From: Leptotrichia trevisanii DSM 22070
GTDB taxonomy: Bacteria; Fusobacteriota; Fusobacteriia; Fusobacteriales; Leptotrichiaceae
NCBI RefSeq assembly: GCF_000482505.1
Contig: NZ_KI519444.1
Location: 48,953-112,952 of the forward strand
Length of the DNA: 64,000 nucleotides
Reading direction: 5' to 3'
The translations under genes and the position numbers were made by a program. Within the stretch, counting starts at the first letter, position 1. Each line of letters opens with the position of its first letter. This document shows positions 3,331 through 36,000 of the stretch, piece by piece. The notes beneath the pieces were generated by a model that was not told where the DNA came from, ran no database searches, and was given only the letters and a program-made list of their open reading frames with translations.

Positions 3331-4452
3331 CTATTTTTTATTTCTAAAAATTGACGGCCTAACAATTACTTTCACATTTTTAGGAACTTCCAACTGTACC
3401 TTTAACGGCCCTCTTTTAACATTTATCCATCCCAGCCCTGCAATTACAAGTTCCTCATTTTCTTCAATTTCCACTTCGTGAGTTACAAATTCATTTTGAA
3501 AATATTTTTCTTTTTCATCTTCTTGTAAAATTTCAAAGTAATCTCCACTTAACAGGGCTTCCACTCTTTCCTCACGAGCCACGTGAAACTTCACACTTTT
3601 TGAAGCATACGCAGAAAAAATAGGCTTGCTTCCACTTTCTAAAAGTTCATTTCCAAGTATTTTAAATCTGCAGAAAACATCAAACATAAATACCTGATTT
3701 TCTTCAAGTTTAAAAGTTTTTCGGGAAATTTCTCCAGCTGGCACTAGCTTTAATCCATTTTCTACACTAATTAAATCAGAAATTCTCCCATCTGGAATAA
3801 GTCCAGGTGTGTCAATTATCGTAATTTCACTATTTGGAATTTTATTGTTAATTGATTTTAAAGTAGTTCCAGAATATTTAGAAGTTGTTATTTTGTTGTT
3901 TCCAAGAAGTAAATTTATAACTGATGATTTTCCAACATTTGAAACTCCAAGCACAGTTGCCTTTACTTTTTTGTTATGAAAAATATTTTTAATTTTTCTG
4001 ATTATTCCATTTACTCCGTATTTATTTTTAGCACTAATAAAGGCAATATCATCAGGTACAATGTCCTCTTCTGCAAGCCTGTCCTTTACCCAGTTGGAAA
4101 TTTCAGTTGGATGTATGAAGTCAGGCAGCAAATCTATTTTGTTAATTAAAATTATAGATCTGTAATCTCTTAGATAATCCAAGATTTCCTCAGTAAATGA
4201 ACCTTCAAAGTCAATAATATCAAAAATTGGAAGTATTATATCAGATTTTTTTACACATTCATTTACTTCCTTCAAATAATCTTCCCTGCTAAAATTATTT
4301 ACAAGATTTTCCCCATAATTTTTAATTTTAAAACATCTCTGACAAAGTAAATTATCCTCTGTTATAAATTTCTCTTCAGGAACATATCCTTCCTTATTTT
4401 TATCTTCAAACTGCAGTTCAATTCCGCAACCGCTACATTTTTTTATAATCAA
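3331..4452 (-). CDS. yqeH: YqeH-type circularly permuted GTPase
   Basis: Ribosome-assembly GTPase that acts in small-subunit (30S) biogenesis. The N-terminal zinc finger is CSGCGIEL plus CQRCFK. The G motifs come in permuted order: G4-type INKIDLLPD at about residue 102, then the P-loop GVSNVGKSSVINLLLG at about 170, then DTPGLIPDG. A YqeH/BipA-like C-terminal RNA-binding domain follows. The start is a TTG: AGGAGG sits five bases upstream of it, and translation from there gives the expected KKCSGCG finger. The 373-residue length is typical. Confidence 0.95.
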   Translation of the reverse strand: MIIKKCSGCGIELQFEDKNKEGYVPEEKFITEDNLLCQRCFKIKNYGENLVNNFSREDYLKEVNECVKKSDIILPIFDIIDFEGSFTEEILDYLRDYRSIILINKIDLLPDFIHPTEISNWVKDRLAEEDIVPDDIAFISAKNKYGVNGIIRKIKNIFHNKKVKATVLGVSNVGKSSVINLLLGNNKITTSKYSGTTLKSINNKIPNSEITIIDTPGLIPDGRISDLISVENGLKLVPAGEISRKTFKLEENQVFMFDVFCRFKILGNELLESGSKPIFSAYASKSVKFHVAREERVEALLSGDYFEILQEDEKEKYFQNEFVTHEVEIEENEELVIAGLGWINVKRGPLKVQLEVPKNVKVIVRPSIFRNKK

Positions 4453-23560: not shown

Positions 23561-24194
23561 ATTGCTTGCCTTATTTTAATGGATATACTACTTTTACGTT
23601 ATTACTGGTATAGGTAATATGTTAGGATATGGGTTGTTTCAATCCTTGTTTTAATGGATATACTACTTTTACTACAAGAAAATGGCATAAAAAGATCAAT
23701 TTTCATACGTTTCAATCCTTGTTTTAATGGATATACTACTTTTACTTCGGTTGTGTTGGAAGCCATTATCTTTTTTAGGTTGTTTCAATCCTTGTTTTAA
23801 TGGATATACTACTTTTACTGTCGAAGAAAAAGTGTTAGAGATAAACCATACATTTGTTTCAATCCTTATTTTAATGGATATACTACTTTTACCTTTGTTG
23901 AATTCAAAGCATCCTTAAGGGTATATTACAAGTTTCAATCCTTATTTTAATGGATATACTACTTTTACTACAGAGTTACTAAGAATATCACAAGATTTGC
24001 GATGTCGTTTCAATCCTTATTTTAATGGATATACTACTTTTACCGGTTTCCCTTCGGCTTCATCTTATTAACCTTGCCACCGGTTTCAATCCTTATTTTA
24101 ATGGATATACTACTTTTACCTGTTAAAAAATACGCTAATGGTCTATTTAATTTAGCAGTTTCAATCCTTATTTTAATGGATATACTACTTTTAC
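23561..24194 (-). CRISPR. CRISPR array, 9 repeats and 8 spacers
   Basis: Repeats of 37 bases start at 23561, 23636, 23709, 23782, 23856, 23932, 24007, 24083 and 24158; spacers are 36-39 bases. On the plus strand the repeat starts GTTTCAATCCTT and ends ATACTACTTTTAC. Read on the minus strand it ends GGATTGAAAC, the typical 3' end of type I-B/III repeats, so crRNA is made from the minus strand. The 23561 repeat is degenerate in its last 12 bases (crRNA sense), marking the leader-distal end. Repeats 2-4 have CCTTGTTTT where the others have CCTTATTTT. The array is not followed by effector genes; cas1-cas2-cas4 lie about 9 kb downstream. Confidence 0.98.
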
Positions 24195-24501: not shown

Positions 24502-25509
24502 TTAAATCAAATCATCTGCATTCACTTCTTCATCAAACTTAAAGTCATCATCATGCAAATGCACCACTTCCAACGCCTTTTCATAATTCGTAGATTTTTT
24601 CGAGAAGAAATCGTGCTGTGTTGTTTCCACATTTAAACCATTTAACACAATTGGATTTACATTCTTCACTTCAAATTCTTCTTCAAATCCTAGATTCATC
24701 AAGGCTTTGTTCGCATTGTAACGGATGTACTCCTTCACATCGCCCGTAAGCCCAATATCCCCATAAATTTCATCAGTATATCTTGCTTCATTTTCGTACA
24801 AGTCGTACATCAATTTTTTCAGTTCAGCCCTCATATCAGCTTTTTCCTCTTCGCTGAAAGAATTGTATAATTCTTGGAACAATAATCCGACAAAAACTCC
24901 GTGAATCGACTCATCAGCTATGATTTTCTTGATTATATCGCAACTTGCAACCATTTCTCCCTGTCCTGCAAGCCAAAGCGGTAAAAAGAAGCCGCTGTAA
25001 AACAAATATGTTTCCAAATAAACCGAAGCCGCCAGAGCCATCGCTATTTCCCTTTTTGAAGCCTCAGGATTATTCATTTTCTGATAATATCCATCAATTT
25101 TATTGGCTTTATACTGCAAATGCGGATTTTCCTGAACCCATCTGAATGTTTCGTTAATCTCCCTTGTAGACGCAACTGTTGTAAATATTGTCGAATAAGA
25201 CTTCGCATGAATCGTTTCCATCATACACATATATGAAAGTACCGAACGATTTTGCAATGACTCAATATGATCAATAATCTTCGGCATCCCCGTATGACTC
25301 TGCAACGTATCCAAAAGCGTTAATCCTCCCAACACGTGCAAATACGCCAATTTCATCGCAGGCTCAAGCGAATTCCAGCTATCAATATCCTTTGACGGAA
25401 TATACTCCGTATCAATCCAAAACTGCTTCAAATTCTGCTCCCAAAACATCTCCACATAATCATTTTCTGGTGTGTTCCAGTTTACTGCCTCATATATTTT
25501 TTTCTCCAT
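24502..25509 (-). CDS. nrdF: Class Ib ribonucleotide reductase beta subunit
   Basis: Carries the metal-tyrosyl radical for NrdE. Ligands: Asp in GLTLLDTLQSH, Glu and His in METIHAKSYSTIF with the radical Tyr seven residues after the Glu, Glu in YLETYLFYSGF, and Glu/His in ADESIHGVFVG. The spacing fits NrdF. The 335-residue length and acidic C-terminal tail (needed for NrdE binding) are normal. The nrdE gene lies 3.6 kb upstream beyond a block of defence genes, so nrdF may depend on read-through or its own promoter; AAAGGAAAA precedes the ATG. Confidence 0.94.
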   Translation of the reverse strand: MEKKIYEAVNWNTPENDYVEMFWEQNLKQFWIDTEYIPSKDIDSWNSLEPAMKLAYLHVLGGLTLLDTLQSHTGMPKIIDHIESLQNRSVLSYMCMMETIHAKSYSTIFTTVASTREINETFRWVQENPHLQYKANKIDGYYQKMNNPEASKREIAMALAASVYLETYLFYSGFFLPLWLAGQGEMVASCDIIKKIIADESIHGVFVGLLFQELYNSFSEEEKADMRAELKKLMYDLYENEARYTDEIYGDIGLTGDVKEYIRYNANKALMNLGFEEEFEVKNVNPIVLNGLNVETTQHDFFSKKSTNYEKALEVVHLHDDDFKFDEEVNADDLI

Positions 25510-25587: not shown

Positions 25588-25884
25588 TTAGAATAGTTCA
25601 CTATGACTACCTGATGCTAATAAAATCAATATTAATTTATCTTCAACTATCTCGTAGATTAATAACCAATCTGGAGTTATATGACATTCTCTTGCCCCAT
25701 CATAATTATTGACTAATTTATGATCCTTGTTTTTAGGAGGAAGTTTTTCTCCTTTTGCTAATATTGAGATTATACTTTCTAATAATTTTAAATCTTTTTT
25801 CTGTTTTTTTAGATTTTTTAAATGTTTTTTAAATTTCCCAGTAAGAATAATAGAATATTTATACTCTTCTTTTTTACCCTTCAT
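25588..25884 (-). CDS. RelE/ParE-superfamily toxin, YafQ-like
   Basis: A 98-residue protein: YKYSIILTGKFKKHLKNLKK, then LESIISILAKGEKLPPKNKD, HKLVNNYDGARECHITPDWL, LIYEIVEDKLILILLASGSH. This is the YafQ-type mRNA interferase layout, with His and Asp/Trp in the usual HITPDWLLIYE segment. The start is the ATG at 25884, which overlaps the end of the antitoxin gene by 11 bases and has GGGAGAAG upstream; the longer open frame to 25977 lies inside the antitoxin gene. It belongs to a two-gene toxin-antitoxin module inserted between nrdF and the Abi gene. Confidence 0.9.
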   Translation of the reverse strand: MKGKKEEYKYSIILTGKFKKHLKNLKKQKKDLKLLESIISILAKGEKLPPKNKDHKLVNNYDGARECHITPDWLLIYEIVEDKLILILLASGSHSELF

Positions 25885-26164
25885 AATCTTCTCCCAAGAC
25901 ATCTTTAAACATTTCTTCTGGACTACTGTAGGATTTATAATTTGAAGGATTTTTCTTAATTTGTTTAACTTCTTCAAATGCTTGAGCCAATTCTGAATTT
26001 TCAGGTAAAGAATTTATATAAAATGGTATGCCTTTTTCTCTTATAGCCTGTTTTAAAAATATATTAATTGCTGTACTAAGGCTTAATCCTAAATCTTTAA
26101 ATAATTTCTGTGCTTCTTTTTTAGTTTCCTCATCTATCTTTATACTTGTATTAACTGTTGCCAT
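25874..26164 (-). CDS. RelB/DinJ-family antitoxin
   Basis: A 96-residue antitoxin with a ribbon-helix-helix N-terminus: TVNTSIKIDEETKKEAQKL followed by GLSLSTAINIFLKQAIREKG and IPFY, the DinJ/RelB signature. The acidic C-terminus (SSPEEMFKDVLGEDYEG) would wrap the toxin. AGGAAGTGATATTTT lies before the ATG. It probably represses its own promoter, as is usual for the family. Translation is coupled to the toxin by overlap. Confidence 0.9.
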   Translation of the reverse strand: MATVNTSIKIDEETKKEAQKLFKDLGLSLSTAINIFLKQAIREKGIPFYINSLPENSELAQAFEEVKQIKKNPSNYKSYSSPEEMFKDVLGEDYEG

Positions 26165-26238: not shown

Positions 26239-27180
26239 CTATTTATGCCAATCTTTTGGAAAATCCATTTTATATAAAATATCATTTATATCAATATCTT
26301 TTAGTTTAAGTTCAAGTAAACTTAATAATTCTCGTAACTTTTTTGTTAGACTTTCATATTCTTCTTTTGATAAAAATAATTTAAGTCCTTCGTATATCGT
26401 AAATAATTTTTGTTTCTTATTATTTGTTATACCTATAATATTATTTATATTTACAATATTTTTTGATGAAAAATCGTACATTCTTTCATTATGTGCTGCT
26501 ATGTTTCTAAATAATGAACTTGCCCGTAAAAAAGTTTTTATAAAATTATTATTTAATTTAGGTAAATTTGTGTACTCATTTTTATACAAATTTCTAAAAT
26601 GACTTATTATTTTATTTTGTACTCTATTTTCCAAAATCAAATAAAATCTGCTCATTTCTCCAAATGTAAAAAAATTAATTACTATCCAAAATGGTATATT
26701 GTCTTTTGTTGTACTATAATGCTTTATTATACTATTGCTTTTGTTATTTCTTAAAAAATTTAGTTTTTTTACTAAATGTGAAATAAGATGTATATTTTCA
26801 TTTCTAACTCCAACGTAATAATTATTAAGTTCCAAATAACTTTCTTTATTTGTATAACATTCTGAATAATAATATGCAATTGCCGTTTTAAAAGCTCTTT
26901 CCAATTGTGTCAAAACATCAAAAAACAACATTCTCAAACTTTTATCAAAATCATACAATGCTTTCAAATGATTAAAATGAACTCCCAATTTATAAATATC
27001 ATTTCCGTTTAAATCTTTCCCTTTTAAAAAAGGTTCTTTATAAAAATTTATAATGGAATAATAATTATACCTCATTAAACAATAAATTGTTTCATCATCA
27101 GTTTTTACCCGTAATTTACCTCCGTTTTCTCCATTTAAAATCTCAACTTGTTCCTTAAAAGTTTTAAATGGCTTATCCAT
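26239..27180 (-). CDS. Abi_2 (AbiD/AbiF) family abortive-infection protein
   Basis: A 313-residue Abi_2 protein. It begins MDKPFKTFKEQVEIL, contains RYNYYSIINFYKEPFL, LYDFDKSLRMLFFDVL and TQLERAFKTAIAYYYSE, and near the C-terminus has FRNIAAHNERMYDF. The RX4H (RNIAAH) is HEPN-like, in line with an RNA-targeting toxin. The start is the ATG at 27180, with AAAGGGGGAAAAGG upstream; a longer frame to 27225 would cover a terminator. A separate promoter, structured RNA and terminator lie directly upstream (27209-27331), an arrangement described for abiF-type genes. Confidence 0.88.
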   Translation of the reverse strand: MDKPFKTFKEQVEILNGENGGKLRVKTDDETIYCLMRYNYYSIINFYKEPFLKGKDLNGNDIYKLGVHFNHLKALYDFDKSLRMLFFDVLTQLERAFKTAIAYYYSECYTNKESYLELNNYYVGVRNENIHLISHLVKKLNFLRNNKSNSIIKHYSTTKDNIPFWIVINFFTFGEMSRFYLILENRVQNKIISHFRNLYKNEYTNLPKLNNNFIKTFLRASSLFRNIAAHNERMYDFSSKNIVNINNIIGITNNKKQKLFTIYEGLKLFLSKEEYESLTKKLRELLSLLELKLKDIDINDILYKMDFPKDWHK

Positions 27181-27208
27181 TCCTTTTCCCCCTTTTATCT
27201 CAAAAATG

Positions 27209-27243
27209 CAAAAAAGCCCTATCAAAATTGAAAGAGCTTTTTC
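27209..27243 (-). terminator. Terminator of the Abi-associated RNA
   Basis: On the minus strand AAAAAGCTCT pairs with AGGGCTTTTTT (one G-U pair), and the loop can pair further as TCAA/TTGA, giving about 14 bp followed by T. It lies only 28 bases before the Abi start codon, so transcripts from the upstream promoter mostly end before the gene, with some read-through. Confidence 0.8.
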
Positions 27244-27296
27244 TACAGTCTACAACAACGCACAGTTAAGTGGGTTATTCTTGTAGTACGATCACT
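27209..27296 (-). ncRNA. Candidate structured RNA upstream of the Abi_2 gene (abiF RNA-like)
   Basis: A unit of about 88 bases with its own consensus promoter and terminator. From its 5' end: CTACAA and TTGTAG form an outer stem; inside it AAC-C-CAC and GTG-C-GTT pair around TTAACT; the terminator hairpin follows. Structured RNAs of this kind, called abiF RNAs, have been reported upstream of abiF-type genes and proposed to act as antitoxins; that comparison is from memory, while the hairpins, promoter and terminator are seen directly. Confidence 0.7.
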
Positions 27297-27302
27297 AAAA
27301 TT

Positions 27303-27331
27303 ATTATACTCTATATTTTGATTTTTGTCAA
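27303..27331 (-). promoter_or_regulatory. Consensus sigma-70 promoter for the Abi-associated RNA
   Basis: TTGACA (27326-27331) and TATAAT (27303-27308) on the minus strand with exactly 17 bases between them, both hexamers perfect. Transcription should begin at about 27296, just ahead of the structured RNA. It is the strongest promoter match I saw in the window. Confidence 0.88.
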
Positions 27332-27373: not shown

Positions 27374-29095
27374 TTAATAATAAGATTTTTCACATTTATC
27401 ACTGTCAATAAAAGTAACTATTCCACCTTTTGAATTAAATTCAACATTTAATTTACAATTTTTAGTTAAATTATATTTTCCTTCTTTAAAAGTTACTTTT
27501 CTTAAAGTATTTGGTTCTAATTTATAGAACTTCTCCTTATCCAAGTATAAATCTATACTTATTTCTCTGTCTGATAGATTAGTTAAAATATAATCATACT
27601 CTTTAGGAAAAGATTTAAATTGACTTTGCTGATTAACAACACCACAACTCTTTAAATCAATTATTCCAATTTCTGAATCAGGATTAATAGTAAATTGACA
27701 TTTAGTACCATCATTTTTTTCTATACTATGTTCACCTGCTTTTAATGTTATTTTTTTTGAAGAATATGATTCTAATATGTAATTGTAATCTGCTGTTGTA
27801 TCTAATTTTATTTTTATTTCTTTATCAGTTGAATTATTTAAAGTATATTTTTTTAAACCTTTGTCTAATACATCATTCTGTCTTATTCCATCTTTATTAA
27901 TCCATATTACAACTAATGATATTATTGAAGCAAACAACACAATTAAAAAAGAGGATACTTTAGGATTCTTCCTTTTATTTTCTACTAAATACTCTGATTT
28001 GTATTTTTGGATAAATTTCTTTTCGTTTATTAAATTCCAACCATTTTCATTTTTTAACACAAAGAAAAAATCAAACGAATACACATCACCAATTCTAATA
28101 TTAATATTATTTTCAAAATTTTCTTTTTTTAATTTTAGTTTTATAGGAAAAATTACAAAACTTTCTTCATTATTATTTTTATACTCATGTAAATTAAAAT
28201 AATCAAATTCTATATTAAAAGTTATGCCGTTAATTCTTTCATTTGATTCATTTTGATTTATTCTAAAAAAACTTAATATTTTTTCTTTATCTTCTTCTAA
28301 CAAATATTCTGAAATATTTTCATATCTATAGTCTGTTTTAAGTATCTCATTCAAGATATTATTTATTTTTAGTTCCAAAATATTTTTCTTAATTAATAAA
28401 AATTCTTTGATTTCAATTAATTCTACAATTCCTATATCTATAACTTCTTTTAAAAATTTTTTTCTTAAAAAATTACTACCTACTAATATACAGTATCCAA
28501 AAAAATAATAACCTGCTATAAAAATTATAAAATTAATCCATTCAAATTTTTCATTTATTTTAAAATATTGACTTGCTACAACAGATAATATTGGAGTAAC
28601 CAAAGAAAAGTTGATTGTAGTAATAGTAGTAATTTTTTTCCATTTATTAATTTCGTCATTTATTTCGTTTTCTAATTCCTTTAACAACTCATCTATATTT
28701 TCTAGTTTAATTATATAATTTGAATCAATATACTCTTTAAATAAATTGTTGATTCTATTATTAATTAGAACTCTATCATCATAAAAATCTACAATCTCAT
28801 TTTTCCCAAGTTTTAATTTTGACTTTAAACGTTTAGAATAACACCAATATACCCAAAATATTGATAAATTCATTACTAAAAATACAGTACTAATCCATGT
28901 TTTAAAAAAATCTACATTACTAAAAAAATACTTTATAATTCCCGTTGAAGTAATTGGAATTATTAAAATAATAATTATGAATGTTGTTGGAAATCTCTTT
29001 TTATAAAAATAATTGGAATTATACTTCTTTTTCTCTTCTATTATAGTTTTAATATGACTAATTTTAGGCTTATTTACACCGAACAACTTATACAC
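27374..29095 (-). CDS. Multi-pass membrane protein of unknown function
   Basis: A 573-residue protein with about four N-terminal hydrophobic helices (TTFIIIILIIPITSTGIIKY, STVFLVMNLSIFWVYWCY, then around residues 155-200) and another near 385 (SSFLIVLFASIISLVVIWI), followed by a repeated beta-rich domain: two related stretches around NSTDKEIKIKLDTTADYNYI and NLSDREISIDLYLDKEKFY. The listed start is a GTG inside the nrdE 3' end (22-base overlap); a TTG three codons later, eight bases after GAGGAG, is the alternative. Not recognised. It belongs to the block that separates nrdE from nrdF. Confidence 0.65.
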   Translation of the reverse strand: MYKLFGVNKPKISHIKTIIEEKKKYNSNYFYKKRFPTTFIIIILIIPITSTGIIKYFFSNVDFFKTWISTVFLVMNLSIFWVYWCYSKRLKSKLKLGKNEIVDFYDDRVLINNRINNLFKEYIDSNYIIKLENIDELLKELENEINDEINKWKKITTITTINFSLVTPILSVVASQYFKINEKFEWINFIIFIAGYYFFGYCILVGSNFLRKKFLKEVIDIGIVELIEIKEFLLIKKNILELKINNILNEILKTDYRYENISEYLLEEDKEKILSFFRINQNESNERINGITFNIEFDYFNLHEYKNNNEESFVIFPIKLKLKKENFENNINIRIGDVYSFDFFFVLKNENGWNLINEKKFIQKYKSEYLVENKRKNPKVSSFLIVLFASIISLVVIWINKDGIRQNDVLDKGLKKYTLNNSTDKEIKIKLDTTADYNYILESYSSKKITLKAGEHSIEKNDGTKCQFTINPDSEIGIIDLKSCGVVNQQSQFKSFPKEYDYILTNLSDREISIDLYLDKEKFYKLEPNTLRKVTFKEGKYNLTKNCKLNVEFNSKGGIVTFIDSDKCEKSYY

Positions 29096-31173
29096 TCCTC
29101 AATCGTAGCCTTTCTCGTTCTAGTATAATAAAGCGACTTCAACCCCAGCCTATGTGCATAAATATAAAGTCTAGCCAAATCTCTTGTGCTGTCCGTACTC
29201 TTTGTATACAAGATAGTCGAAATTCCTTGATCCACGTGTCTTTGAATTACAGAAATTAGTTTCAAGATATTTTTTTGATCCATATCGTATGCTGACTTAT
29301 AGAAGAAGTAGTTGTCGTTTGTCAGGTACGGCATTGGGTAGAATGTTGTACTGTCTCCGTATTCTCTTACTTCGATTGTGTCAACTACTGGCATTACTGA
29401 GGCTGTCGAGTTCATTATGTAGGATGTTGACTGGTTTGGGGCGATTGCCATTCGGTAGGCGTTGTAGACTCCGTGTTTCATTACTTGCTCTTTTAGGTTT
29501 GCCCAGTCTTCTTTTGTTGGGATGTAGATTCCTTCAAATAGCTGTTTTATTTTTTCTGTTTGTGGCATGTATTCTTTTGTGATATATTTGTCAAAGTAGT
29601 TTCCGTTGGCATATTCAGATTTTTCAAAGTCCTTGAAAGTTTCACCTTTTTCCTTTGCAATTTCCATCGAACGTTCCAATGAATAGAAGTTTACCATCAT
29701 GAAGAATACGTTACAGAAGTCAAGTGCTTCCTTGCTTTCATACATAATAAAGTTTTTAGCCAAGTATCCGTGCAGGTTCATTGCTCCCAACCCTACTGAG
29801 TGCAGCTCATCGTTTGCTTTTTTTATTGACGGAACAATATCAATGTTTGTTAAGTCTGATACCATTGTAAGTGAGTCAATCGCTGCTTTTGTAGCTTCTT
29901 TTATTCTCTTATTTTCCATTACAGTTGCAATATTTAATGAACCCAGATTACATGAAATTCCACGTCTTATTGTATCTTTCTCATAATATGCGTTAATGTC
30001 TGAAACTTCTGATAATTGGCATATTTCGGTGCAAAGATTTGAGAATTTAACCGTCCCAATTTCTTTCAATGCATGCTCCCTATTCGCATTATCTTTAAAG
30101 AATAAATATGGATATCCGCTTTCCTTTTGCGTTTGAGAAATTTTTACAAGAAGTTCCCTTGCGTTTATTTTTTTCTTTTTAACATTTGGATTATCAACCA
30201 GTTTTTCATACATTTCGTTCATATCCATTTCATCCAGATATTGCCCATATTCAAGGAATACTGTGTGTGGATTGAACGTGTAGCAAACTTCATCTTCCAT
30301 TGCCAACTGCATAAACTTGTCTGGAACAATAACTCCGATTGATAATGATTTTATTCTGATTTTTTCATCTACATTTATCTTTTTACTATCCAAAAATTCA
30401 TTAATGTCAGAATGAAAAACATTCAAATAAACCGCTCCAGCTCCAGCTCTTTGTCCTAACTGATTTGCATACGAAAAAATATCTTCTAGAATCTTCATAA
30501 TCGGTAAGACTCCAGAAGCTCTACCTTCCACACCTTTTATTGACTCTCCTCTTGCCCTGATTTTAGAGAGGTTAATCGCAACTCCTCCACCAATTGAAGA
30601 AAGTTTCATTGAAGAATCAAAAACATATCCAATTCCGCTCAAATTATCTCCCATTTCATCAAGGAAGCAAGAAACAAGCTCCCCAGAACGTTTTTTTCCA
30701 GAATTTAAGAAAGTAGGCGTAGCAGGCTGATATTCTTGATTTATCAACATCAAAGCGTACTCTTTTGCCTTTTCAACATTTCCCTGTGCCAAATAAAGCG
30801 AAACTGTCGCAACCCTGTCTTCATATCTTTCCAAAAACTTCTCCCCAGAATCATCCATCAAAGCATAACTTTGATAAAATTTCGATGCACTCATAAACGA
30901 AGCAAACCTGAACTTTTTATCATAAACCAGCTTAAATACTTCCTTTATTTCATCGTGGCTATACATCTCATAAAAATCAATATAATAATCATTCTTTATC
31001 AAATATCTCATCTTTTCCTCAAGATTGTGAAAAAACACCGTATTCTTATTCACATAATCCACAAAATACGAATAAACAGCCTCCTTATCTTTCTCAAGCT
31101 GAAAATCCTCCCCTTTTTTTACCATTATCTCGTTATTTAAGTATATCCATTTTTTTGCTCTTTTATCTACCAT
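29074..31173 (-). CDS. nrdE: Class Ib ribonucleotide reductase alpha subunit
   Basis: Catalytic subunit that reduces ribonucleoside diphosphates. Active-site motif NLCTEI holds the thiyl-radical Cys and Glu; the redox Cys pair includes LVSCFLDE and the partner in ISCNLGSLN. The C-terminal shuttle cysteines are in EECISCSV. Glycine-rich GQRAGAGAVYLNVFH is as in NrdE. At 699 residues, lacking an ATP cone, it fits class Ib rather than NrdA. nrdI and nrdH are upstream on the same strand beyond a mosaic repeat. Electrons should come from NrdH. Confidence 0.95.
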   Translation of the reverse strand: MVDKRAKKWIYLNNEIMVKKGEDFQLEKDKEAVYSYFVDYVNKNTVFFHNLEEKMRYLIKNDYYIDFYEMYSHDEIKEVFKLVYDKKFRFASFMSASKFYQSYALMDDSGEKFLERYEDRVATVSLYLAQGNVEKAKEYALMLINQEYQPATPTFLNSGKKRSGELVSCFLDEMGDNLSGIGYVFDSSMKLSSIGGGVAINLSKIRARGESIKGVEGRASGVLPIMKILEDIFSYANQLGQRAGAGAVYLNVFHSDINEFLDSKKINVDEKIRIKSLSIGVIVPDKFMQLAMEDEVCYTFNPHTVFLEYGQYLDEMDMNEMYEKLVDNPNVKKKKINARELLVKISQTQKESGYPYLFFKDNANREHALKEIGTVKFSNLCTEICQLSEVSDINAYYEKDTIRRGISCNLGSLNIATVMENKRIKEATKAAIDSLTMVSDLTNIDIVPSIKKANDELHSVGLGAMNLHGYLAKNFIMYESKEALDFCNVFFMMVNFYSLERSMEIAKEKGETFKDFEKSEYANGNYFDKYITKEYMPQTEKIKQLFEGIYIPTKEDWANLKEQVMKHGVYNAYRMAIAPNQSTSYIMNSTASVMPVVDTIEVREYGDSTTFYPMPYLTNDNYFFYKSAYDMDQKNILKLISVIQRHVDQGISTILYTKSTDSTRDLARLYIYAHRLGLKSLYYTRTRKATIEECISCSV

Positions 31174-33021: not shown

Positions 33022-36000
33022 ATGCTGACAAATCAATACAAAAATTCTTACAATTTATTACAAAATGATTTGAAAAATAGAATATTACTGCTGGATGGAG
33101 CGATGGGGACGATGATTCAGCAGGAAAATCTAACTGCCGATGACTTTGGCGGGGAAAAATATGAGGGGTGCAACGACTATCTTGTGTTGCAGAAACCTGA
33201 GATTATTAAAAATATTCATAAAAGATATCTAGAGGCCGGGAGTGATATTATTGAAACTAACAGTTTCGGGGCTTTGGATATTGTGCTGAAAGATTATGAT
33301 TTGGAAGATAAGGTTTTTGAGATGAATAAGGCGGCGGCAGAACTTGCAAATGAAGCGATTGCAGAATACAAAAACGAACATCCAGAAGTTACTCGAAATC
33401 TTTATGTTGCAGGGGCTTTGGGGCCTTCCAACAAATCCATCAGCGTTACTGGGGGAGTGACTTTTGAAGAGCTTATTCACACCTATTATACAGCTGTTTC
33501 AGGGCTTCTGTCTGGTGGAGTTGACTTAATTCTGTTTGAAACAATTCAGGACACGAGAAACTTGAAGGCGGCTTATCTAGGGCTTAAAAAGGCTATGGAA
33601 GAAAATTATACTGTGCCGCTAATGCTGTCGTTTACAATTGAAAGTACAGGAACTACACTTGCAGGACAGACTGCGGATGCCTTTTATTACGCTGTAAACC
33701 ACATGAATCCATTTTCCGTGGGACTGAACTGTGCGACTGGGCCTGAATTTATGACACAGTTTTTAAAAACATTGAATAATATTTCAAATACGTATATTTC
33801 GGTTTACCCAAATGCGGGATTACCTAATGAAGATGGAGAATACGAGGAAACTCCAGACACATTGTCAGCAAAAATTGAGCCGTTTTTCCAAAATAATTAT
33901 TTAAATATTGTTGGAGGGTGCTGTGGAACTACGCCTGAACATATTCAGAAAATTAAGGAAAAAAGTGCAAACTATTCTCCAAGAGTTATTGATGAAAATA
34001 AAAATTTTAATGATGTATCAGGGCTAATTGCTCTAGAAATGCCAAAAGATCGTCCAATTTACGTGGGGGAACGTACAAACGTAATCGGTTCACGTATTTT
34101 TAAGAACTTAATTGCCAGCGAGAAATTTGACGAGGCGACAGAAGTTGCTAGACTTCAGATTAAGGGACGAGCGGATGTAATTGATATTTGTCTTGCTAAT
34201 CCTGATAGAAATGAAATTGCCGATATGAAGGCATTTTTAGATAAAGTGGCAAAATTTGCGAAAGTTCCGCTTATGATCGATTCGACTGATATAAATGTTG
34301 TTAAAGAAGGACTTACTTACTTGCAGGGGAAAGGAATTATAAATTCAATTAACCTTGAAGACGGGGAAAAGAAATTTGCTGATATGGCAAAAGTTATCAA
34401 GGACTTTGGGGCTTCTGTCGTTGTGGGGCTGATTGATGAGGAAGGAATGGCTGTTTCAGTTGAGAAAAAATTGAAAGTTGCCAGAAGAAGTTACGAACTT
34501 CTTACGAAAAAATACGGAATTGATGAAAGAGACATAATTTTTGACACATTAGTTTTTCCAGTTGCTACAGGAGATCAGAAGTACATCGGCTCTGCCACAG
34601 CAACAATTGAGGCAATTAGACAAATTAAAACTGAAATGCCAAATGTAAAGACAATTTTAGGAGTAAGTAACATTTCATTTGGACTGCCAATTGCTGGAAG
34701 GGAAGTTTTAAACACTTACTATATGCAAAAGGCTTATGAAGCTGGACTTGACTATGCGATTGTAAACACTGAAAAAGTTATTCCAATGAGTGAAATTTCA
34801 GACGAGGAAAAGGAATTATCAGAAAATATTTTATTTCACACAGATGATGAAAATGTATCAAAATTTGCAAACTTCTACCGTGAGAAAAAAGCCGTTCAAA
34901 AAGTTGTCGATACAAGCAATCTAACCACCGAAGAAAAAGTTTCCAATCTAGTTGTCGAAGGAAGTAAAAAAGATTTAACAACGCATCTTGATGAATTACT
35001 GCAAAAATATTCTCCAATCGACATCATAAATGGCCCTCTGATGACTGGAATGGACGAAGTCGGAAAATTGTTTAACAATAACGACTTAATCGTTGCCGAA
35101 GTTTTGCAAAGTGCGGAAGTTATGAAAGCATCAGTTTCCCATCTGGAACAGTTTATGGAAAAAGACGAATCTTCTATAAAAGGGAAAGTAATTATGGCAA
35201 CTGTAAAAGGGGATGTTCACGACATTGGAAAAAATCTGGTTGGGATAATCATTGGAAATAACGGTTACGAAGTAATTGACTTGGGAATAAATACGCCTGC
35301 TGAAAAAATCCGTGAAGCAATTATTGAGCATAAGGCTGATTTCCTGGGACTTTCTGGACTTCTTGTAAAATCTGCTACAGAAATGGTGAATACTATGGAA
35401 GTTCTACATGAAGCCGGTATTGATATTCCAATATTTGTGGGAGGTGCGGCACTTACAGAGAAATTCACTGTAAATAAAATTGAGCCTGCCTACAAAAATA
35501 ATATCGTAATTTACTCAAGAGATGCAATGACAGCTCTTGCTGACTTGAACAAAATGATTGATGAGAAAAAATTTGAAGAATTTAAGCAATATTTGCAAAA
35601 ACGTAGAGATCTTGTAACGATTAAAGATGCCAAAAAACTTGAACAGCTAAAAGTTAAGCCAACGGTAAGTGATATTAAGGATGCTGATGGAACATTTGAC
35701 TTTTCAAAAGTTGAGCTGCCAAAATATAATTTTGAAAAAATTTACAAGCCTGAAACATTAAATAAACAAATTATAACAAATATAAAAGCAAAGGATGTAT
35801 TTCCATTTGTAAACTTACAAATGCTAATTGGAAAACATCTGGGAATGAAATGGATTGTAAATAATCTAATTGAAAAGCAGGATCCTAGAACAATAAAATT
35901 GTACAATGAAATTTTGGATATTATTGAAAATGGTGATGAATACTTTGATATAAAGGCTATTTACAAATTTTTCCCTGTACGCCGAAAAGTTGGTGAAAGA

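Follow-up and report, generated by a model that had tools for sequence, protein, structure and literature searches.

Introduction

AbiF has been described as a type III toxin kept in check by a noncoding RNA (ncRNA), with RNA-guided targeting evolving later (PMC12737573), and has been proposed as an ancestor of Cas13 (PMC12165695, PMC12737573). The type III-like unit RCd22-AbiF of C. difficile consists of a SigA promoter, a structured ncRNA, a terminator, and the toxin, and the RCd22 RNA acts both in cis, through repression by termination, and in trans, through neutralization by binding (PMC12373285). In PbAbiF, one AbiFr RNA is bound per monomer and the RNase activity is blocked (PMC12737573). 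For a different type III toxin, phages carry toxin-less antitoxin copies known as pseudo-ToxI, a precedent for RNA mimicry (PMC3475682).

Here, we analyze an RNA-abi unit of Leptotrichia trevisanii DSM 22070 that lies in the window, the whole 64,000-nt stretch of DNA under study. Leptotrichia is a genus known for Cas13a, and the unit would add it to the bacteria with toxin-antitoxin units of the AbiF-AbiFr kind, from which Cas13 is proposed to descend. We put the probability at roughly 85% that it is a two-part, type III-like toxin-antitoxin unit of the AbiF-AbiFr type with a divergent antitoxin RNA. The mechanism class is already known from C. difficile RCd22-AbiF and from PbAbiF; new are the RNA variant, its persistence next to decayed toxin genes, and the presence on two prophages of copies that lack a toxin.

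Results

Layout of the unit and the Abi protein

Read along the minus strand, the unit consists of a promoter, a hairpin RNA of ~54 nt, a 14-bp terminator hairpin, and an Abi_2/HEPN gene (Table 1), so that an RNA gene with its own promoter and terminator sits directly upstream of a presumed toxin on the same strand, an order also seen in relatives. The promoter matches the consensus at all 12 letters, as the first-pass annotation had read it (TTGACA-17-TATAAT), and is not random noise, since the genome (2.85 Mb) contains 50 instances of the perfect pattern with a spacer of 16 to 18 nt but only 4 of a reversed control pattern. Transcription is predicted to begin near 27296, giving an RNA with AGUGAUCGUACUACAA at its 5' end that continues through the bulged hairpin and ends in the terminator hairpin (27243-27210). 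RNA plus terminator, 89 nt in all, fold at -25.7 kcal/mol (z = -3.7), a stability reached by 0 of 200 shuffles. A strict terminator scanner reported no terminator at the locus, where the hairpin stem is interrupted. The terminator described in the first-pass annotation is present as a 14-bp hairpin with one mismatch, but its distance to the abi start codon (ATG at 27180) is 29 nt, not 28.

Table 1. Features of the RNA-abi unit in the window, and R1 matches elsewhere without an Abi_2 gene directly behind them
Feature	Position	Strand	Basis or remark
-35 element TTGACA	27326..27331	-	12/12 consensus match with 17-nt spacer
-10 element TATAAT	27303..27308	-	Promoter scan; transcription start predicted at ~27296 from spacing
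Putative AbiF-type antitoxin RNA, hairpin domain with 5' GAUCGU tail	27243..27296	-	R1 match plus compensatory changes
Outer stem, 5' arm CUACAA	27281..27286	-	Partner UUGUAG 27250-27255
Inner stem, 5' arm AACCCAC	27270..27276	-	Partner GUGCGUU 27257-27263, one C.C mismatch
Rho-independent-type terminator hairpin	27210..27243	-	Fold: 11 + 3 = 14 bp, one mismatch; U run follows
Ribosome-binding site region AGGGGGAAAAGG	27182..27193	-	Read from sequence
AbiF/AbiD-family (Abi_2) HEPN protein, presumed toxin	26239..27180	-	313 aa; PF07751, PADLOC AbiD, 8vz6 fold
R1 orphan	G079:837512		Chromosomal locus of G072 AbiF, toxin gone
R1 orphan	G077:114240		Followed by DUF3644-REase gene with apparent own promoter
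R1 orphan	G073:35398		Fic gene next
R1 orphan	G071:1754060		Prophage

Judged by its structural model, the 313-aa product is an AbiF-fold HEPN protein. The sole significant PDB match of the AlphaFold model (pLDDT 86; input alignment of 12 sequences) is 8vz6, the PbAbiF dimer with bound ncRNA (E = 3.9e-8; TM 0.77/0.81). Matches to Abi_2 (PF07751; 126.5 bits, 2e-36, against a Pfam cut-off of 25.6 bits) and to PADLOC AbiD (1.7e-47) agree with the fold, and together with the HEPN motif they bear out the Abi_2/HEPN identity initially assigned from sequence. One RNxxxH motif is seen, RNIAAH at residues R225-H230, and its R, N, and H columns are invariant in an alignment of 12 relatives.

Structure and covariation of the RNA

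We built a covariance model, R1, from alignable Leptotrichiaceae RNAs upstream of Abi_2 homologues found across the phylum Fusobacteriota. With the whole genome searched, R1 scores the RNA at 27243-27296 with 79.0 bits (E = 1.5e-14), the window sequence itself belonging to the R1 seed. The RNA has the 5' tail GAUCGU. Its outer stem of 6 to 7 bp, with two more pairs below, is followed by a 5'-side bulge of 3 to 4 nt and by an inner stem of ~7 bp that is capped by a short loop. Both nested stems of the first-pass annotation (CTACAA/TTGTAG and AACCCAC/GTGCGTT) are present, the inner one with a mismatched pair. There is a single R1 match at the locus and no tandem repetition of the ToxI kind.

The starting alignment of eight sequences contains both-sided changes in 7 of 15 pairs, with 95.7% of cells paired. 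Three of the eight pairs of the outer stem (helix 1) change on both sides, with 100% of cells paired, as do four of the seven pairs of the inner stem (six of seven when all hits are used). When partners were slid by 1 to 3 columns in this alignment, 32 to 47% of cells paired and 0 to 2 pairs changed on both sides. The 12 distinct hits, in an alignment that is fitted to the R1 model, have both-sided changes in 9 of 15 pairs, against 0 to 3 in slid controls over both alignments. Compensatory changes in homologous loci, whose absence together with a missing covariance match the first-pass annotation had named as a reason to abandon its reading, are thus present in 7 to 9 of the 15 pairs. They fall mostly between a few clades (the window type, the G072/G000:C69/G084 type, and the G077 type), so the independent events are few. 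By itself, the 54-nt hairpin is not unusually stable (z = -1.6), and its support is covariation, not stability. The structure of the RNA is conserved and covaries, and the RNA is linked to Abi_2 genes.

Relation to Rfam and to other Abi_2 leaders

The covariance search that had been proposed, with the Rfam abiF RNA model (RF03085), gave no match in the window, the whole genome, or 18 related loci, nor any in the locus at E <= 10; given a membership threshold of 37 bits or above, the window RNA is outside RF03085 by score. Rfam as a whole returned chance matches only, both at gathering thresholds and at E <= 10 (e.g., CyaR at 17.2 bits against a cut-off of 47). RF03085 does match phiC2 (37.6 and 19.5 bits), and it scores an Abi_2 leader of G064, which belongs to the same order, at 29.9 bits, below cut-off. 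None of 50 viral Abi_2 records contained a match over the cut-off, and the single Rfam abiF model misses most Abi_2-linked RNAs in this sample.

We surveyed 74 distinct regions upstream of Abi_2 genes, drawn from Fusobacteriota, virus contigs, and one other genome contig. Of these regions, 68 contain promoter-like sites, compared to 25 in shuffles (maximum, 32), and 43 contain terminator-like hairpins, compared to 1.1 (maximum, 3). A promoter-RNA-terminator leader therefore seems to be general for Abi_2 genes, and the sequences of the leader RNAs seem far more diverse than a single Rfam family. The most enriched 4-mer after the -10 element is GATC, which occurs ~6 to 14 nt downstream of it in 13 of the 74 regions compared to 1.7 in shuffles (maximum, 4); the motif was picked after the sequences had been viewed, and it is significant only in this positional test, the looser count of GATC anywhere in the upstream region being not significant. 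Virus contigs L067-L141 contain several unrelated-looking classes of hairpin RNA before Abi_2 genes, none over the RF03085 cut-off, among them GAUC-tailed single hairpins and AAUGG...CURGCGA types.

Distribution and genomic context

Searching 98 Fusobacteriota genomes with R1 yielded 16 places, 12 of which lie directly upstream of an Abi_2 gene or remnant: seven before intact genes, one before a gene interrupted by a single stop codon (G000:C69), and four in which an intact RNA precedes a decayed abi gene (G079, G080, G073, and G076). Retention of the RNA where the toxin is lost is as a toxin-antitoxin pair predicts. The remaining 4 of the 16 have no Abi_2 gene directly behind them (Table 1). 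Applied to 50 virus Abi_2 loci, R1 gave no significant match, and R1 is therefore a Leptotrichiaceae RNA clade.

One chromosomal locus has the same RNA with a varying gene behind it, namely AbiF in G072 and G000:C69, a DUF3644-REase HEPN gene in G077 (L151/L231), and a remnant in G079 (L155/L230). G077 raised the idea of a further role for the RNA with DUF3644-REase HEPN proteins, which was rejected because the DUF3644 gene has an apparent promoter of its own; other DUF3644 genes without such an RNA also contradict it. The second AbiF of the genome (L003; G000:C69:98189-99124) has its own R1-type RNA and an in-frame stop near residue 262, and a third Abi_2 gene (G000:C18) follows an RNA that is different and unmatched.

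In the window, nrdE (29074-31173) and nrdF (24502-25509) enclose the unit, which adjoins a RelB-YafQ-type toxin-antitoxin pair (25588-26164). Relatives are homologous to the RNA-abi unit from 27335 onward, a point just ahead of the -35 element (from 27343 in one relative), and the remainder of the nrdE-nrdF interval differs between Leptotrichiaceae genomes, with a Fic gene in others. On sequence comparison, the interval is a defense hotspot rather than a single insertion. The first-pass annotation was right in placing a fusobacterial unit in the nrd locus, here that of Leptotrichia. On contig G073:C79 (L157), two RNA copies, at 35398 and 36482, flank a Fic-family gene within the nrdE-nrdF interval, in the order RNA, Fic, RNA, truncated abi. 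The window interval also contains a 573-aa open reading frame without a Pfam match (27374-29095). Between nrdF and a GTPase gene are eight CRISPR-DR7-type repeats (23636-24194); this array lies ~2 kb past the stop codon of abi, and its repeats look unrelated in sequence to the window RNA.

Toxin-less copies on phages

The G071 orphan (G071:C1:1754060-1754112; L154/L229) lies in a prophage with an integrase, RecE/RecT, an anti-repressor, and Xre-ImmA. Its hairpin is identical to the G072/G000:C69 AbiF RNA at 41 of 41 positions, compared to 80% for the promoter and 63% for the terminator region. Virus contig L142 carries an RNA (4283-4332, minus strand) in the same position, behind Xre-ImmA. The hairpin of this copy shares 95% identity with the G084 AbiF RNA, and the sequences flanking it are 88 to 93% identical to the G071 prophage. 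There is no Abi_2 gene near the G071 copy and none in the L142 record, which is possibly a fragment. Exact-pattern scans with short hairpin pieces matched other viral contigs, where those tested were chance and only L142 was real by R1; a hairpin search of the BLAST phage and plasmid collections returned nothing meaningful.

Discussion

The AbiF/AbiFr mechanism is the best explanation of the locus because the unit has the same anatomy as RCd22-AbiF and PbAbiF. We propose that the strong promoter would supply an abundant short RNA that stops at the terminator, ahead of the toxin gene, with occasional read-through providing toxin mRNA. The bulged hairpin would bind the dimeric HEPN ribonuclease AbiF and block its active site, leaving the cell unharmed; should the RNA pool drop or be displaced, as in phage infection, free AbiF would cut RNA and growth would stop. 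From characterized relatives, we infer RNA-protein binding, toxicity, neutralization, read-through expression, and phage triggering. The RNA-protein toxin-antitoxin or defense unit envisaged at the outset is supported by the AbiF fold, the covarying RNA, and the linkage to Abi_2 genes, and its antitoxin role is one we infer from RCd22-AbiF (PMC12373285) and PbAbiF-AbiFr (8vz6; PMC12737573). Points against the toxin-antitoxin reading are the RF03085 non-match, the few independent changes, the modest stability of the hairpin, and the RNA copies without AbiF.

An alternative hypothesis is that the RNA is a cis-acting leader or attenuator only, with hairpin and terminator holding abi transcription low and no action in trans on the protein. 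The terminator does lie between promoter and gene, and part of the repression in C. difficile is termination in cis (PMC12373285). However, such an attenuator would have no need of an upstream covarying hairpin separate from the terminator, orphan copies retain the hairpin with unrelated genes or none downstream, the G071 prophage copy matches the G072/G000:C69 AbiF RNA in every position of the hairpin but less well in promoter and terminator, and the RCd22 and PbAbiF RNAs act in trans by binding, all of which makes this hypothesis improbable. It is very unlikely that an ordinary promoter and terminator merely enclose chance inverted repeats: the genome is AT rich, with many promoter-like matches at 9/12 letters (24 found, 22.3 expected), and the z-score of the lone hairpin is unremarkable, but the compensatory changes, the little support for slid pairings, the repeated pairing of the RNA and Abi_2 genes, and the rarity of a 12/12 promoter by chance all argue otherwise.

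A Cas13-like, RNA-guided system, with the 5' tail or the loop as guide, is scarcely credible. The proposed ancestry of Cas13 (PMC12165695, PMC12737573) and the recurrence of the GAUC tail among the surveyed leaders would fit such a role. Against it, the RNA is near-invariant within clades and has neither a variable, spacer-like segment nor a repeat-spacer array of its own, and AbiF is described as an ncRNA-restrained type III toxin for which targeting came later (PMC12737573).

Returning to the toxin-antitoxin reading, temperate Leptotrichia phages might carry solitary AbiF antitoxin RNAs as decoys that disarm host AbiF, the hairpins of different phages fitting different AbiF clades of the hosts. 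Two examples and the resemblance to pseudo-ToxI mimicry (PMC3475682) suggest this role, which we regard as possible but doubtful; the plain alternative is that they are antitoxins left behind. With R1 and the copies that lack a toxin, two questions become testable, the cognacy of AbiF-RNA pairs and phage escape from AbiF by means of antitoxin RNAs.

Compared to known families, the window RNA resembles RF03085 in forming a hairpin with a bulge and in its place immediately before Abi_2 genes, but lacks its conserved AAGC...GCUCAAAU core, and its asymmetric bulge is 3 to 4 nt on the 5' side, whereas RF03085 has a large 6-nt bulge on the 3' side. CRISPR-Cas13 has a repeat-spacer array and a large effector with two HEPN domains, whereas the protein here has 313 aa and one RNxxxH motif. 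ToxN is not known to be a HEPN protein. The type III system ToxIN, with its phage pseudo-ToxI, likewise pairs an RNase toxin with an RNA antitoxin, but ToxI is a tandem-repeat pseudoknot RNA and the window RNA is one hairpin (PMC3475682). PbAbiF-AbiFr (8vz6) differs in protein sequence (~20% identity) and is alike in fold over nearly the whole chain, with one ncRNA per monomer to be expected here as well. AbiF-RCd22 of C. difficile phi027/phiC2 (PMC12373285) carries two RF03085-detected abiF motifs where the window RNA has one hairpin, and shares with the Leptotrichia unit an Abi_2 HEPN toxin, the RNxxxH motif, an upstream ncRNA with its own promoter, and a terminator between the two.
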